From Bacteroidales bacterium (GTDB lineage Bacteria > Bacteroidota > Bacteroidia > Bacteroidales > VadinHA17): DNA of 51,026 nt. Shown in pieces: positions 45,379-51,026 of the stretch (positions are counted from its first letter, which is position 1; each line of letters begins with the position of its first letter). The position numbers were made by a program, and so were the translations under genes. The stretch covers positions 1 through 51,026 of the forward strand of contig JAGPFZ010000012.1 in assembly GCA_018056245.1 (NCBI GenBank). The letters are read 5' to 3'. The notes beneath the pieces are model-generated. The model worked only from the letters and a program-made list of their open reading frames with translations. It did not search any database and had not been told where the DNA came from.

Positions 45379-46743
45379 TTAATCGGGCAAGTCCTTGAGT
45401 CCATGAAGAATTTTCTCCACCTCTTCGTTTGTTAATTCATGGTCGGGCAGGTTGCCTTCGAAATATTTCTCATAAGCCGAGATATCCAGATGTCCGTGGC
45501 CACTGAGGTTAAAGAGTATAGTCTTCGATGTTCCTTCGAGGTCGGCTTTTCTTGCCTCGTCGAGTGCGGCGGCTATGGCATAGTTAGATTCGGGGGCAGG
45601 TAATATACCTTCATTGCGAGCGAAGAGAACACCTGCTTCGAAACATTCCCTTTGCAGTTTAGATTTTGGTTCTATGAAGCCGTCTTTAACAAGCTGGCTT
45701 ACAAGCACGCCTGCTCCATGATAACGAAGCCCGCCGGCATGTATCTTTTCGGGAATGAAATTATGGCCGATAGTGTACATTGGCAGGAGAGGCGTTAGGC
45801 CGGCCGAGTCGCCAAAGTCGTACATGAATTTTCCTTTTGTAAGCTTTGGGCATGATGCCGGCTCAACGGCAACCAGTCTTATGTCTTTTCCATTAACCAG
45901 CTTCTCCCTTAGAAACGGGAATGCAATGCCCGAGAAGTTCGAGCCTCCGCCAAAACATCCTATAACCACATCGGGATAATAACCGGCTTTTTCCATCTGT
46001 AAAAGTGCCTCCTGACCAATTATAGTCTGATGCAGAATGACATGGTTAAGAACGCTTCCGAGAGAATACTTCGTATAAGGATCTTGTACTGCTATCTCAA
46101 TAGCTTCGGAAATAGCAATGCCGAGACTTCCAGGCGAATCGGGATCCTGTTCGAGTATTTTTCTGCCGGCCATAGTCATTGTGCTTGGCGATGGGATAAC
46201 CTTTGCATTGTATGCATTCATCATTATTTTACGGCCGGGCTTCTGATTATAGCTTACCTTCACCATAAAGACAAGTAATTCCAGACCAAAATGGTTACAT
46301 GCAAAACTCATAGCGCTTCCCCATTGTCCTGCACCTGTCTCGGTAGTTATTCGTCTTATACCTTCCTTTTTGTTATAATAAGCCTGAGCTATTGCAGTAT
46401 TTGCCTTGTGCGAACCCGAGTAATTATAACCTTCATACTTATAGAAAATTTTGCTTTTTGTCCCGATCGACTTCTCGAGCGACTCTGCTCTGAAAACCGG
46501 TGAAGGCCGGTAAGTCATGTAAAGGTCAAGAACTTCATCAGGTATATCAATGTATCTTTCATTCGACATTTCCTGCTTGATAAGTTCCATAGGGAAAATT
46601 GCAGCAAGGTCTTGTGGGCCTGCAGGCTGACGTGTAACCGGATGCAACGGAGGCAAAGGCTTGTTGGGCATGTCGGCTATAATGTTATACCATTGCCTCG
46701 GCATCTCATTTTCATTTAAGGTAATCCTTCTTGAATTTTTCAT
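45379..46743 (-). CDS. TrpB2-type tryptophan synthase beta-like PLP enzyme
   Basis: 454-residue PLP enzyme of the long TrpB2 subgroup. The Schiff-base Lys113 is in YEGYNYSGSHKANTAIAQAYY, the substrate loop ETGAGQWGSAMSFA follows, and VIGCFGGGSNFSG binds the cofactor phosphate. The extra N-terminal 60 residues (MPRQWYNIIADMP) distinguish it from standard TrpB that works with TrpA. It is the last gene of the Phe/Tyr operon, 47 nt after the DAHP synthase gene. No trpA is nearby, so it may use free indole, salvage indole, or act on another amino acid such as serine. Confidence 0.9.
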   Translation of the reverse strand: MKNSRRITLNENEMPRQWYNIIADMPNKPLPPLHPVTRQPAGPQDLAAIFPMELIKQEMSNERYIDIPDEVLDLYMTYRPSPVFRAESLEKSIGTKSKIFYKYEGYNYSGSHKANTAIAQAYYNKKEGIRRITTETGAGQWGSAMSFACNHFGLELLVFMVKVSYNQKPGRKIMMNAYNAKVIPSPSTMTMAGRKILEQDPDSPGSLGIAISEAIEIAVQDPYTKYSLGSVLNHVILHQTIIGQEALLQMEKAGYYPDVVIGCFGGGSNFSGIAFPFLREKLVNGKDIRLVAVEPASCPKLTKGKFMYDFGDSAGLTPLLPMYTIGHNFIPEKIHAGGLRYHGAGVLVSQLVKDGFIEPKSKLQRECFEAGVLFARNEGILPAPESNYAIAAALDEARKADLEGTSKTILFNLSGHGHLDISAYEKYFEGNLPDHELTNEEVEKILHGLKDLPD

Positions 46744-46790: not shown

Positions 46791-47909
46791 TCAACTTTTC
46801 CCTTTCGAATTATTATTCATTCCGTTGTTGATAATTTTTATCTGTCTGTTGATTGATTCCTGATGAATAGCCTTGAAGATGGTGTCGATCAATTCTGTGC
46901 TCAGTCCTTTCGTATTGCCTTTTATCACGGCTTTTGATATAATTTCGTCCCACCTTGCACTCTGGAGAACCGTTATATTATTGAGTTTTTTGAATAGACC
47001 TATTTTATCGGCTACCTGCATCCTCTGTTCGAGCAGTTCAATAAGATAATCGTCGAAAACATCAATCTGCTGGCGAAGCTCGCCAAGCTCATCGAGTATT
47101 TTGGGATCATCAGGATTTGGGTTTCTTAACACAAGCCTGACAATAATTTCTTTTAGCATGTCGGGAGTTACCTGCTGTGCTGCATCGCTCCATGCATTTT
47201 CGGGATTGATATGTGATTCAATAACAAGTCCGTCGAAATTAAGGTCCATTGCTTTCTGTGATATTTCATAAATATATTTCCTGCTACCTCCCATGTGGCT
47301 CGGATCACAAAAGATAGGCAGGCCGGGTATTCTTCTTCTTAGTTCAATGGGTATCTGCCAGTTAGGCTGGTTCCGGTAAATGGTTTTTTCAAATGTTGAA
47401 AAGCCGCGGTGTATTGCTCCGAGTTTTTTTATCCCTGCTTTTGCCACTCTCTCAATAGCACCTGTCCACAGATCAATATCAGGATTTATTGGATTCTTTA
47501 CCAGAACCATCACATTTGTTCCCGACAATGCATCGGCTATTTCCTGAACAGAAAACGGGTTTACCGATGTACGGGCTCCTATCCATAACACGTCAACATC
47601 ATATTTAAGAGCTTCATAAACGTGTTTCTCATTGGCCACTTCGGTAGCTGTGAGAAGTCCGGTTTCTTCTTTTACCCTTCTTAGCCATTTCAATCCGTTT
47701 ATACCTGCTCCTTCAAATGAACCTGGACGCGTTCTTGGTTTCCAAATTCCAGCACGAAAAACTTTTACCTGTTTTATTTCGGCCAGCATGCGAGCCGTCT
47801 CCATCACCTGCTCTTCGGTCTCTGCACTGCAGGGACCCGATATAATAAACGGCCTTCCCGAATTCTCAATCCAGCCTTTCAAAGGCGAAATATTCATCTC
47901 CATAACCAT
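46791..47909 (-). CDS. Bifunctional DAHP synthase / chorismate mutase
   Basis: 372 residues. Residues 1-265 form a type I beta DAHP synthase (FIISGPCSAETEEQV, KVFRAGIWKPRTRPGSFEG, HRGFSTFEK, PIFCDPSHMGGSRKYIY), which condenses PEP and erythrose 4-phosphate. Residues 275-365 form an AroQ-type chorismate mutase (LGELRQQIDVFDDYLIELLEQRM, then VLQSARWDEI). The fusion gives the first enzyme of the shikimate route and the branch point to prephenate in one chain, and may allow feedback control through the mutase part. It is the fourth gene of the operon; the upstream prephenate dehydrogenase ends 6 nt before it. Confidence 0.93.
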   Translation of the reverse strand: MVMEMNISPLKGWIENSGRPFIISGPCSAETEEQVMETARMLAEIKQVKVFRAGIWKPRTRPGSFEGAGINGLKWLRRVKEETGLLTATEVANEKHVYEALKYDVDVLWIGARTSVNPFSVQEIADALSGTNVMVLVKNPINPDIDLWTGAIERVAKAGIKKLGAIHRGFSTFEKTIYRNQPNWQIPIELRRRIPGLPIFCDPSHMGGSRKYIYEISQKAMDLNFDGLVIESHINPENAWSDAAQQVTPDMLKEIIVRLVLRNPNPDDPKILDELGELRQQIDVFDDYLIELLEQRMQVADKIGLFKKLNNITVLQSARWDEIISKAVIKGNTKGLSTELIDTIFKAIHQESINRQIKIINNGMNNNSKGKS

Positions 47910-47915
47910 GGCAAA

Positions 47916-48761
47916 TTAGTTTAATATCTTTTGAATCTTATTTGCTTCTTCCATAAGCTTTTTAAGCCCTTCAGTGTTTTTTTCAAGAATAAACTTCCTG
48001 AAAGTTTTCATTTTTTCCATATACGTATCAATAACTTCGATGATATGTTCGGCATTTTCGGTGAATATAGGAGCCCACGTTTCACTGTTACTCTTTGCCA
48101 GCCTCACCGTACTTTCAAAACCGCCTCCTGCAAGAGTGAGAATATTTTCAGTTTCTTTCTCCTTTTCAAGAACGCATAAGGCAAGTGAAAAAGAAGTGAT
48201 ATGCGATATATGGGAAACATAAGCAACATGGACATCGTGACTGCTCGAATCCATATATACTATATTCATATTCAAAACATTAAACATACGTTTTACAGTT
48301 TCAAGAGCATCCGCATCACTTAGCTCAGGGTCGCATATAATGGCTCTTTTATAATCGAAGAGTTTGCTATGTGCAGCCAGAGGACCAGAGAATTCTGTTC
48401 CAGCCATGGGATGAGCTGCAACAAATCTTCCTCTGTTCGGATGGTTATTCGATGCATTTGCTATTGAGCTTTTTGTCGAACCCATATCGGTAATGATTTT
48501 ATTCGTTCCCTTTGTCATGTCGAGTATGCCGGGAAGAAGCACGCAATTGACATCAACCGGCGCTGAAAGAATTATTAAATCGCTTTTTCCCACTGCATTT
48601 TCAAGTGTGTCGGTTTCGTCAACTATACCACATAATTTTGCAATATTTTGATGCTGAATATTTACATCAACACCTATTACAATATCGGCAAATCCTCTTT
48701 TCTTGAGGTCAATTGCCATCGAGCCTCCAATAAGCCCTATTCCAACAACACAAATTGTCAT
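47916..48761 (-). CDS. tyrA: Prephenate dehydrogenase
   Basis: NAD-dependent enzyme converting prephenate to 4-hydroxyphenylpyruvate for tyrosine. 281 residues with the Rossmann GIGLIGGSMA (residues 7-16), VIGVD as second strand end, and His117 in AAHPMAGTEFSGP, the conserved prephenate-binding region, plus YVSHISHI near residue 185. No ACT or chorismate mutase domain is attached; mutase is supplied by the neighbouring fusion. Cyclohexadienyl or arogenate dehydrogenase activity is possible, as sequence alone does not fix this. Confidence 0.92.
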   Translation of the reverse strand: MTICVVGIGLIGGSMAIDLKKRGFADIVIGVDVNIQHQNIAKLCGIVDETDTLENAVGKSDLIILSAPVDVNCVLLPGILDMTKGTNKIITDMGSTKSSIANASNNHPNRGRFVAAHPMAGTEFSGPLAAHSKLFDYKRAIICDPELSDADALETVKRMFNVLNMNIVYMDSSSHDVHVAYVSHISHITSFSLALCVLEKEKETENILTLAGGGFESTVRLAKSNSETWAPIFTENAEHIIEVIDTYMEKMKTFRKFILEKNTEGLKKLMEEANKIQKILN

Positions 48762-48794: not shown

Positions 48795-49961
48795 TTACTT
48801 CATGAAATTATTTATAACTTTTTCTTTTGCCTTCAAAAGTATTTCCTCTTTACAACATAGTGATATCCTCACATATTTGCTCCCGTTTTTCCCGAAAATA
48901 GATCCCGGGGTGATAAAAACATGAGCTTTATCGAGAACTTTGTCGGCCAGTTCTTCTGCATTTTTATATCTGTCGCTTATCTTTCCCCACATGAACAGAC
49001 CAGCCTGTTCGAGGTCATAACTGCATTGCAGTGCGTCCATAAGTTCACAAGCTATCTCTCTTCGGCGTGAATACACACTATTTAGCTCATAATACCAGTC
49101 GTCGCCTCTTTTCAATGCTTCAGCCGCTGCAAGTTGCAAAGGCCGGAACATTCCCGAATCCATGTTACTTTTCACCTTCAGCACTTCGCTTATGTAACCA
49201 TTATCACCTGCTGCCATACCGATTCTCCATCCTGCCATATTATGCGACTTGCTCAAGGAATTAAGCTCGATTGCAACATTTTTAGCCCCATTAAGGTATA
49301 ATATACTTATGTGGTCTTTATTAAGTATAAAGCTGTAAGGGTTATCATTTACTATCAATATGTTATGCTTTTCTCCAAATTTTATCAAACTTTCGAAGAG
49401 CATTGTTGACGCTTTCCGGCCTGTCGGCATATTGGGATAATTCACCCACATCAGTTTAACCTTGCTAAGATCTGAATCTTCGAGAGCATCAAAATCGGGC
49501 AGCCAGTTGTTCTTTTCGGTAAGGTCATATTCTTTAATATTTCCTCCTACGAGTCGGGTAATCGAAGAATATGACGGGTAACCCGGGTCGGGTACAAGAA
49601 CATCATCTCCCGGATTTACAAAAGCCATGCTGATATGCATTATTCCTTCCTTGCTTCCTATAAGGGGCAGAATTTCGTTATCAGGGTCGAGTGTAACATT
49701 GAAATATTTCCTGTACCAGTCTGCCATTGCATTTCTGAGCTCAGGTATGCCATTATAGCTCTGATAGCCATGTACATCAGATTTTGCAGCTTCCTCCGAC
49801 AGTTTTTTTATAGCTTCCGGGGGCGGAGGCATGTCGGGACTGCCTATTCCAAGGTTAATAACATCAATTCCTTCTTTTTTCATCCGGTCAATCTGTTTCA
49901 GTTTGACCGAGAAATAATATTCCTGAACAGTCTTTGTTCTTTCAGCCGGTTTAACTTTCAT
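48795..49961 (-). CDS. Class I/II aminotransferase (probably aromatic)
   Basis: PLP aminotransferase of 388 residues. The Schiff-base Lys238 is in ELNSLSKSHNMAGWRIG, with YQSYNGIPELR, NYPNMPTG and NDNPYS marking fold type I. Its place between prephenate dehydratase (11-nt overlap at its start) and prephenate dehydrogenase suggests it transaminates phenylpyruvate and 4-hydroxyphenylpyruvate to Phe and Tyr. The sequence also resembles LL-diaminopimelate aminotransferase-like and aspartate aminotransferases, so the substrate call depends on context. Confidence 0.88.
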   Translation of the reverse strand: MKVKPAERTKTVQEYYFSVKLKQIDRMKKEGIDVINLGIGSPDMPPPPEAIKKLSEEAAKSDVHGYQSYNGIPELRNAMADWYRKYFNVTLDPDNEILPLIGSKEGIMHISMAFVNPGDDVLVPDPGYPSYSSITRLVGGNIKEYDLTEKNNWLPDFDALEDSDLSKVKLMWVNYPNMPTGRKASTMLFESLIKFGEKHNILIVNDNPYSFILNKDHISILYLNGAKNVAIELNSLSKSHNMAGWRIGMAAGDNGYISEVLKVKSNMDSGMFRPLQLAAAEALKRGDDWYYELNSVYSRRREIACELMDALQCSYDLEQAGLFMWGKISDRYKNAEELADKVLDKAHVFITPGSIFGKNGSKYVRISLCCKEEILLKAKEKVINNFMK

Positions 49962-50796
49962 ATATAATGTCGTCTTTTTGATAGATTCCTAATATTTCGA
50001 GGTCGGTCGTATCGTCTCCCAGCACTCCATGTATCAGTTCCATTGTGGTGGTATCTTCGGGAATCTCAAGGTCAAGATAGAACATATATCCCCATCCGTT
50101 TCCGTTCAGACGCGGCACCGACTGTATCTTGGTAAGGTTTATATTCATTTCTGCAAATTTCACCAGGACATTTGCGAGGCTCCCGGGTTTGTGTTTCAGC
50201 GAAAAGCACACTGATGCCTTGTTACCTTTTCTTAAGCCTTTACTTTTAGGTCCGATAATAAGAAACCGGGTGTAGTTCTCCCTGTATGTCTCAATCCCTT
50301 CTGCAATAATCTCGAGCCCATATAACTCTGCGGCAATTGATGAAGCAATAGTAGCCACACCTTTCAATTTATTTTCGCTTATTTCCCTTGCACTTCCTGC
50401 CGTATCTTCGGTTTCTATTAACGTTATCTCCGGATATTTATTAAGGAAAGTCATACACTGGGAGATTGCTATAGGATGTGTCCTTATCTGCCTGATATCG
50501 CTGATCGTTTGGCCGGGTAGGGCCATCAGGTTCTGTTTTATTCTTAAATCGTGTTCTCCAAGGATTTTAAGTCCCGACTCTCTGATCAGCGAATAGTTAT
50601 ACAAAATACTACCAGCCCTTGCGTTTTCTATAGCCATCACTGCATAATCGGCTTTGCCGGTTTTGGCTTCGAGAAGTGTCTGATCGAAAGTTGCACAGGG
50701 TATTATTTCAATGTTGTTTCCAAAGTACTGTTTTGCGGCAACTTCATGAAAGCTTGCTGCTTCTCCCTGAATAGAAACTTTTATTATTTTTTCCAT
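49951..50796 (-). CDS. pheA: Prephenate dehydratase with ACT domain
   Basis: Converts prephenate to phenylpyruvate. The 281-residue protein has the dehydratase domain in residues 1-185, with ENARAGSI and the TRF motif (Thr176-Arg177-Phe178 in NYTRFLIIGP), and a C-terminal ACT domain (HKPGSLANVLVKFAEMNINLTKI) that usually binds phenylalanine for feedback inhibition. There is no chorismate mutase domain; that is fused to the DAHP synthase of the same operon. First structural gene, lying 17 nt after the attenuator terminator stem; it overlaps the aminotransferase gene by 11 nt. Confidence 0.93.
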   Translation of the reverse strand: MEKIIKVSIQGEAASFHEVAAKQYFGNNIEIIPCATFDQTLLEAKTGKADYAVMAIENARAGSILYNYSLIRESGLKILGEHDLRIKQNLMALPGQTISDIRQIRTHPIAISQCMTFLNKYPEITLIETEDTAGSAREISENKLKGVATIASSIAAELYGLEIIAEGIETYRENYTRFLIIGPKSKGLRKGNKASVCFSLKHKPGSLANVLVKFAEMNINLTKIQSVPRLNGNGWGYMFYLDLEIPEDTTTMELIHGVLGDDTTDLEILGIYQKDDIIYES

Positions 50797-50813
50797 CTGA
50801 CAATAACCGCTTA

Positions 50814-50853
50814 ATTAAACAAGCAAGGGCCCCTTTTTTTGAGGGACCCTTGC
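50814..50853 (-). terminator. Attenuator terminator before the Phe/Tyr operon
   Basis: On the minus strand, GCAAGGGTCCC (50853-50843) pairs with GGGGCCCTTGC (50833-50823) as an 11-bp stem with one U-G pair and a 9-nt A-rich loop, followed by TTGTTTAATT. It stands between the leader stop codon and the pheA start, as expected for an attenuator. The tail is not a pure T tract, so it may be partly leaky. Confidence 0.75.
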
Positions 50854-50894
50854 ACCTGTAATCGTATATTTAAGCCACATACAAAAATCCCTCA
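50840..50894 (-). promoter_or_regulatory. Antiterminator pairing in the Phe/Tyr leader
   Basis: TGAGGGA (50894-50888, minus strand), beginning 2 nt after the leader stop codon, is the exact complement of TCCCTCA (50846-50840), which covers the end of the terminator 5' arm and the loop. Pairing would stop the terminator from forming. A ribosome at the leader stop would hide TGAGGGA; one stalled on earlier Phe or Tyr codons would not. Confidence 0.7.
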
Positions 50895-50896
50895 CT

Positions 50897-50959
50897 TTAT
50901 TTTCCGAAAAAATAGAAAAAGAAAAAAGTGAAGAAATAATATTTATATGCGGCAATCAT
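50897..50959 (-). CDS. pheL: Phe/Tyr operon leader peptide
   Basis: A 20-codon ORF on the minus strand (ATG 50959, TAA 50899-50897) starts about 12 nt after the predicted transcription start. Eight residues are phenylalanine and four are tyrosine, that is 12 of 20, with the run FFTFFFFYFF at residues 9-18. The downstream operon makes exactly these two amino acids. The codon content, position and following terminator support a leader peptide that senses charged tRNA-Phe and tRNA-Tyr. Chance Phe codons from T-rich DNA are possible, but the mix of TTT and TTC plus Tyr codons and the paired hairpins argue against that. Confidence 0.83.
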   Translation of the reverse strand: MIAAYKYYFFTFFFFYFFGK

Positions 50960-50977
50960 TTTCTTAATTTCAGCTTA

Positions 50978-51007
50978 CAAAAATAGTTTTTTAATTAAAA
51001 AAACAAA
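50978..51007 (-). promoter_or_regulatory. Bacteroidetes promoter of the Phe/Tyr operon
   Basis: On the minus strand, TTTG (51007-51004) and TATTTTTG (50985-50978) are 18 nt apart; another TTTG (51011-51008) gives 22 nt. Predicted start near 50971, about 12 nt before the leader ATG. The -7 box is identical to that of the threonine operon. Confidence 0.65.
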
Positions 51008-51026
51008 CAAAAATATAAAAAAATTT

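Follow-up and report, generated by a model that had tools for sequence, protein, structure and literature searches.

The Phe/Tyr operon at the end of a Bacteroidales contig is very probably under ribosome-mediated transcription attenuation, with the supplies of charged tRNA-Phe and tRNA-Tyr sensed jointly, a reading which is drawn from sequence analysis of the locus and its relatives. The window, i.e., the whole stretch of DNA that was analysed (51,026 nucleotides), is one of the 99 contigs of a genome that is 83.8% complete, in which the leader region is single-copy. On the minus strand, from approximately 51011 to 50797, a promoter, a leader ORF and the proposed attenuator precede pheA in that order (Table 1).

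Table 1. Genes, promoter elements and RNA segments of the Phe/Tyr operon and its leader region
Feature	Sequence	Position	Strand	Remarks
Candidate -33 element	TTTGTTTG	51004..51011	-	Sequence inspection
Promoter -7 box	TATTTTTG	50978..50985	-	TAnnTTTG type, 18 nt 5' of leader ATG
Leader ORF	MIAAYKYYFFTFFFFYFFGK + TAA stop	50897..50959	-	20 codons: 8 Phe, 4 Tyr
Segment 1, protector	GCCGCATATAAA	50942..50953	-	Leader codons 3-6, first Tyr codon included
Inner protector part	CTTCACTTT	50925..50933	-	Phe/Phe/Thr/Phe codons; whole-leader RNA fold
Segment 2	TGAGGGATTTTTGTATGTGGC	50874..50894	-	Alternative partner of segment 1 or segment 3
Segment 3	GTGCAAGGGTCCCTCA	50840..50855	-	Antiterminator partner and 5' arm of terminator
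Terminator 5' arm	GCAAGGGTCCCT	50842..50853	-	12-bp hairpin
Segment 4, terminator 3' arm	AGGGGCCCTTGC	50823..50834	-	Pairs with 50853-50842
T-rich tract	TTGTTTAATT	50813..50822	-	Directly after terminator stem; weak
pheA, prephenate dehydratase		49951..50796	-	NF008865, 205.4 bits, somewhat below cut-off 219
Aminotransferase		48795..49961	-	NF006756, 414.7 bits, below cut-off 507
tyrA, prephenate dehydrogenase		47916..48761	-	NF006307, 321.6 bits, above cut-off 295
DAHP synthase-chorismate mutase fusion		46791..47909	-	All models below cut-offs
TrpB-like PLP enzyme		45379..46743	-	NF009057, 708.5 bits, above cut-off 366

Since pheA and tyrA are both part of it, the operon makes Phe as well as Tyr; a first-pass annotation of this DNA had credited it with enzymes for the two amino acids, and profile models matched both genes. 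The aminotransferase has LL-diaminopimelate aminotransferase models as its top match, and its substrate assignment is only putative. In the fusion protein, NF006421, NF009239 and TIGR01361 match in residues 16-258 and chorismate mutase models in residues 275-356. The TrpB-like gene, 47 nt past the DAHP synthase/chorismate mutase gene, is possibly co-transcribed with the operon, and among the 13 named loci that most resemble the window, 11 have such a gene approximately 1.5-1.9 kb past chorismate mutase. A co-directional tyrA was detected 3' of pheA in 71 of the 80 named loci, a set that includes seven repeats; of the nine loci without a detected tyrA, L160, L184 and L186 stop within 2.5 kb. 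The layouts found among the named loci are pheA-aminotransferase-tyrA-DAHPS/CM, pheA-aminotransferase-DAHPS/CM-tyrA and pheA-DAHPS/CM-(aroB, aroD, aroC-like ORFs)-tyrA, where the aroB, aroD and aroC-like names are what we presume from the start sequences.

Codons for the end products of the operon dominate the short leader ORF, Phe and Tyr making up 12 of its 20 codons. When the upstream region of the window was shuffled with its dinucleotides kept, 11 of 5000 shuffles held a comparable Phe/Tyr ORF, defined as having at least eight Phe/Tyr codons that form at least 40% of the ORF and include three Phe and two Tyr. The -7 box was named on the basis of TAnnTTTG, which we take to be the Bacteroidota -7 promoter motif. 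This motif lies 17-21 nt 5' of the leader start in 29/29 close loci, window counted, and as a control it was found anywhere in the same 45 nt in 167 of 5800 mononucleotide shuffles. Judging from the box, transcription would probably start near 50971.

RNA folding gives three helices that are partly mutually exclusive, namely a protector (1:2), an antiterminator (2:3) and a terminator (3:4). The protector helix of 12 bp joins 50953-50942 with 50885-50874 and is predicted by folding to be extendable, as CTTCACTTT can pair with AAAGTGAGG (50898-50890). The antiterminator consists of 16 bp, UGAGGGAUUUUUGUAU with GUGCAAGGGUCCCUCA (50894-50879 with 50855-50840; duplex -23.0 kcal/mol), and since this pairing overlaps segments of the other two helices, including the 5' arm of the terminator, it excludes both protector and terminator. 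Between the leader and the first structural gene, the 12-bp terminator hairpin (50853-50842/50834-50823) has an energy of -23.2 kcal/mol, a stability reached in 0 of 200 dinucleotide shuffles of the 46 nt, and it is followed by a T tract that is weak in the window, with longer T runs in many relatives.

Much of this region had been picked out in the first-pass annotation. Of the promoter-like boxes that it placed on the minus strand, the -7 box is conserved, and its leader ORF is exact in both coordinates and codon counts. The two arms of its 7-bp antiterminator, TGAGGGA/TCCCTCA, are present (50894-50888 and 50846-50840) but are merely the ends of the 16-bp helix that replaces it on folding, while its 11-bp terminator stem just 5' of pheA is present but folds as 12 pairs. 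The protector helix formed from the leader codons was absent from that annotation and completes a four-segment design.

From this arrangement we infer ribosome stalling, termination in the cell and an either-or response to the two amino acids. When Phe and Tyr are plentiful, the ribosome would reach the stop codon, where its footprint would lie over the start of segment 2, segment 3 would pair with segment 4, and transcription would end 5' of pheA. When Phe or Tyr is short, the ribosome would stall at one of the twelve Phe/Tyr codons and leave segment 2 free, the 16-bp 2:3 antiterminator would form, no terminator would arise, and the operon would be read. If the leader is not translated, its codons 3-6 would pair with segment 2 and the terminator would form by default.

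The promoter box, the leader and all three helices are kept in the window and 28 relatives (29/29), i.e., in an alignment of the window with 21 same-genus loci and seven named loci of about equal PheA similarity. L024 and L029, whose contigs start inside pheA, were dropped ahead of all counts. Throughout these 29 loci the terminator hairpin is at or below -13.8 kcal/mol when each sequence is folded on its own, the 2:3 duplex is at or below -13.3 kcal/mol and the protector (1:2) duplex at or below -8.0 kcal/mol, and the segment 2 motif GGGATTxTTGT is present in every one. Conservation of the ORF and the base pairs in relatives is what the first-pass annotation had predicted of a comparative alignment.

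Helix 1:2 covaries: 7 of its 11 pairs, amounting to 16 cells, have changed on both sides, compared with 3.4 and 4.9 in shuffles, of which 0/500 were as high; slid by +2 columns, it yields 7 pairs with 17 cells, but the paired share of cells is then 54.9% versus 87.6% unslid. Helix 2:3 is 94.7% paired in columns that are nearly invariant and without a covariation signal, and its support is therefore conservation and energy. In helix 3:4, 83.1% of cells are paired and two pairs changed on both sides; the alignment is one column off in some rows, and the structure slid by +1 scores nearly as well as the actual one. Because the aligner sets two terminator types one column apart, this helix was judged by per-sequence folding. 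Against swapped partners, cognate segments were the more stable in 544 of 792 comparisons for 1:2 and 553 of 802 for 3:4, and in 455 of 800, barely above even, for 2:3.

The distances between codons and structure are also kept. The stop codon lies 1 nt 5' of the GGGA of segment 2 in 21/29 loci (5 nt in the window), the last Phe codon 13 nt 5' of it in 21/29 (14 nt in the window) and the last Tyr codon 16 nt 5' of it in 22/29 (20 nt in the window); in L011 the leader frame continues beyond the usual stop. Set against the size of a ribosome footprint, this spacing would suit a stall-versus-stop switch, in which segment 2 is freed on stalling and masked at the stop.

Across the class Bacteroidia, a mixed Phe+Tyr leader was found 5' of pheA in 84 of the 88 upstream regions examined, a count of related sequences rather than of independent events. 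The rule used (at least six Phe/Tyr in 10 codons, at least two of each, start codon in frame, 60-420 nt 5' of pheA) by itself demands two Tyr. By this rule a leader precedes pheA in 22/22 same-genus loci with an intact upstream region, window included (shuffles 11/440), in 8/8 other loci of the order (5/160) and in 54/58 other loci of the class (35/1160), so that 51 of 1760 shuffles met the rule over genus, order and class together; it was likewise found in 62 of 70 further named loci (20/1400) and in 5 of 29 loci of other classes (3/580). These figures rest on 58 of the 66 PheA matches within the class and on 29 of the 189 in other classes; from the named loci, repeats of earlier contigs (L126, L127, L129, L130, L131, L143 and L176) and loci with less than 180 nt upstream (L141, L155 and L189) were left out. 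A stricter leader rule was satisfied in 83 of 188 loci taken from all classes and in 9 of 9400 shuffles. The leaderless class loci, L075, L080, L089 and L092, all belong to family f26, which also has leader-bearing members, e.g., L074, L079 and L088. Elsewhere, no leader precedes the combined pheA, aminotransferase and tyrA of L137 and L194 or the solitary pheA of L152 and L172.

A terminator in the last 170 nt goes with the leader, being found in 110 of 121 leader loci, 2 of 35 leaderless loci and 14 of 1210 shuffles (terminators and tandem leaders were counted in L032-L200 with at least 440 nt upstream, i.e., 156 loci of all classes, without L002-L031). This association bears on the idea that the leader acts on translation, through reinitiation or masking of the pheA start, instead of on transcription termination. 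The hairpin ends 26 nt 5' of pheA, so ribosome access could also be affected; the pheA start is, however, outside the stem, and in many relatives a T run directly follows the hairpin. Together with the terminator counts, these features make translational control a decidedly remote explanation, and they favour an attenuator that works on transcription.

Whether such an attenuator reads Tyr beside Phe was judged from the leader codons. Leaders had been selected by Phe+Tyr density (at least four Phe/Tyr, at least 30%), a rule that would admit Phe-only leaders yet favours Tyr through density, and for this reason they were re-chosen by Phe alone. Between the first and last Phe of these 137 leaders there are 348 Tyr, 70 Ser, 45 Asn, 45 Gly, 42 Thr, 26 Ala, 26 Arg, 20 Lys, 20 Trp, 18 Leu, 17 Ile, 16 Val and 10 Cys codons, besides others; as these Tyr-retention numbers come from related sequences they are not probabilities, but they point clearly one way. 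All of the leaders chosen by the density rule (145/145) have two Tyr codons or more, and the cores hold 731 Phe versus 529 Tyr. In 123 distinct cores, 521 of 765 neighbouring Phe/Tyr codon pairs consist of one Phe and one Tyr, compared with a mean of 400 (sd 13, maximum 441, n = 2000) when codons were shuffled within each leader. L131, a repeat of L007, is still counted in the Phe-only, density and alternation figures, and L114, which lies outside the class and is a false positive, belongs to the density set and is absent from the alternation count.

These figures could also be put down to an attenuator that, like that of pheL, senses Phe only; Tyr codons, which differ from Phe codons by a single base, would then be neutral fillers. 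Indeed, Phe is the commoner residue in the cores, and the operon begins with pheA. With Tyr as a mere filler, however, one would expect Ser, Leu, Ile, Val and Cys to be about as frequent as Tyr, but these one-base neighbours of Phe codons are represented very unequally (348 Tyr versus 10 to 70 of each). Moreover, no leader has fewer than two Tyr even where the rule would let Phe-only leaders in, the interleaving of Phe and Tyr lies above all 2000 shuffles, and the 16 nt spacing of a Tyr codon from segment 2 recurs in 22/29 loci. A Phe-only attenuator is thus improbable. Tyr is specifically kept, and its alternation with Phe supports one leader gauging both end products, which agrees with the first-pass suggestion that the leader would sense Phe and Tyr alike.

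The leader is kept, with 4, 2, 2 and 2 Tyr codons respectively, in L166, L173, L175 and L196, which have no tyrA within approximately 6.8 kb of the pheA start; their tyrA may lie further downstream. As a control for codon content we used hisG. No His leader is visible at hisG of the window's own genome (L201), and the control set was therefore built on 28 class loci (L203-L230, with L201 and the fragment L231 left out). There, hisG is preceded by a His-rich leader in 19/28 loci and by a Phe/Tyr-dense ORF or mixed leader in 0/28, and Phe and Tyr together number 3 in the His cores, so leader codons follow the operon products.

The arrangement is similar to pheL-pheA of E. coli, where a short leader ORF with Phe codons lies directly 5' of pheA and is followed by an alternative antiterminator and terminator, as in the window's attenuator. 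The first-pass annotation had rightly given pheL seven Phe codons; it has no Tyr codon, whereas the window's leader interleaves Phe and Tyr codons, in line with the contrast drawn there between a dual leader and the single-amino-acid pheL. E. coli tyrA adjoins pheA on the opposite strand, whereas in the window one operon makes both products. One leader can sense two or more amino acids, as do the thrL and ilv leaders of E. coli, which differ from the window's leader in their amino acids and in the bacteria that carry them.

Within the Bacteroidota, a structured 5' element upstream of pheA was described in 2021 in Flavobacterium psychrophilum, present also in other Flavobacteriaceae genera, along with leader-peptide clues upstream of amino-acid operons (PMC9723704). 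It concerns the same gene, but the word tyrosine appears nowhere in the main text of that paper and its section on the element carries no leader sequence. Leader-like short ORFs in Bacteroides are mentioned in general terms in PMC7366714, and the authors of a 2010 study state that they knew of no leader-peptide system outside Proteobacteria/Actinobacteria before their own Firmicutes finding (PMC2965389). The Bacteroid-trp RNA (Rfam RF01692; PMC2864571) is, like the window's leader, a candidate cis-regulatory RNA of Bacteroidetes, but is tied by name to Trp synthesis. As an identity for the leader it was rejected, its covariance model having no match at the pheA leader; a search with this model gave 0 matches in the window's own genome and, under stricter filters, in 0/60 class genomes (own included).

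At the gathering score, no Rfam family, the Phe-leader type included, matched the leader of the window or of ten relatives, nor did the T-box model; the single Rfam match among the ten relatives was Flavo-1 in L037, away from the leader. A structured 5' region of an aromatic operon could also be a T box, riboswitch or protein-bound RNA in which the ORF is there by chance. The reading frame is conserved, however, and the codon-to-structure spacing nearly fixed, and with no such family detected in these loci we give this alternative hardly any credence. Searches of open-access full texts brought up no paper recognised as describing a Phe/Tyr leader, and older surveys (FEMS Microbiol Lett 2004, 234:357; Mol Biol 2010, 44:128) may list Bacteroidetes pheA attenuators. 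With neither an Rfam match nor a recognised paper of this kind, we class the mechanism as classical ribosome-mediated attenuation and, as far as seen, the bivalent Phe/Tyr code, the class-wide spread and the tandem copies as new.

These tandem copies, two Phe/Tyr leaders in series, each followed by a called terminator, are present in 9 of 121 leader-bearing loci (L063, L128, L134, L140, L158, L167, L171, L190 and L198). Trp is found inside 18 of 145 leader cores, with Trp codons embedded in the Phe/Tyr run in, e.g., L035, L058, L064, L068, L074, L088, L142, L148, L174 and L175. Trp is usually far rarer than Leu, and in leaders chosen by Phe alone the two number 20 versus 18. It may be that Trp is also read by the leader in lineages with embedded Trp codons, which we offer as a lead only. 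Tandem attenuators are known in the Salmonella mgtCBR operon (PMC3641672), and a search of the open literature for tandem attenuators brought up no paper on tandem amino-acid leaders.

As a tentative proposal, which we hold with rather less than even confidence, one ancestral bivalent Phe/Tyr attenuator may serve across Bacteroidia as an either-or sensor for the terminal aromatic pathway, doubled in some lineages for a steeper response and supplied with Trp codons in others to read all three aromatics. The bivalent leader itself would make classical leader-peptide attenuation the rule for Phe/Tyr synthesis throughout the Bacteroidia, a large class with members in gut and soil. One leader weighing two end products of a branched pathway would be a natural, testable logic gate, the tandem copies would provide a natural comparison of one versus two attenuators, and the leader would fill a gap in Rfam.

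Outside the class, five genomes (L036, L046, L101, L102 and L120) have a pheA with a mixed Phe/Tyr leader. These are the five strongest PheA matches of the 29 other-class loci (43-48% identity, E 3.1e-64 or better; next 6.8e-57), a pattern consistent with transfer of operon and leader together. A Bacteroidota-like pheA-tyrA-DAHPS/CM cluster without a leader was seen in L135 (Sericytochromatia label) and L149 (Lentisphaerae label), for whose contigs misbinning or transfer is possible. In several other-class genomes (e.g., G323, G315, G173, G059 and G110), PheA lies within a much longer open frame of approximately 670-740 aa, suggesting a fused enzyme.
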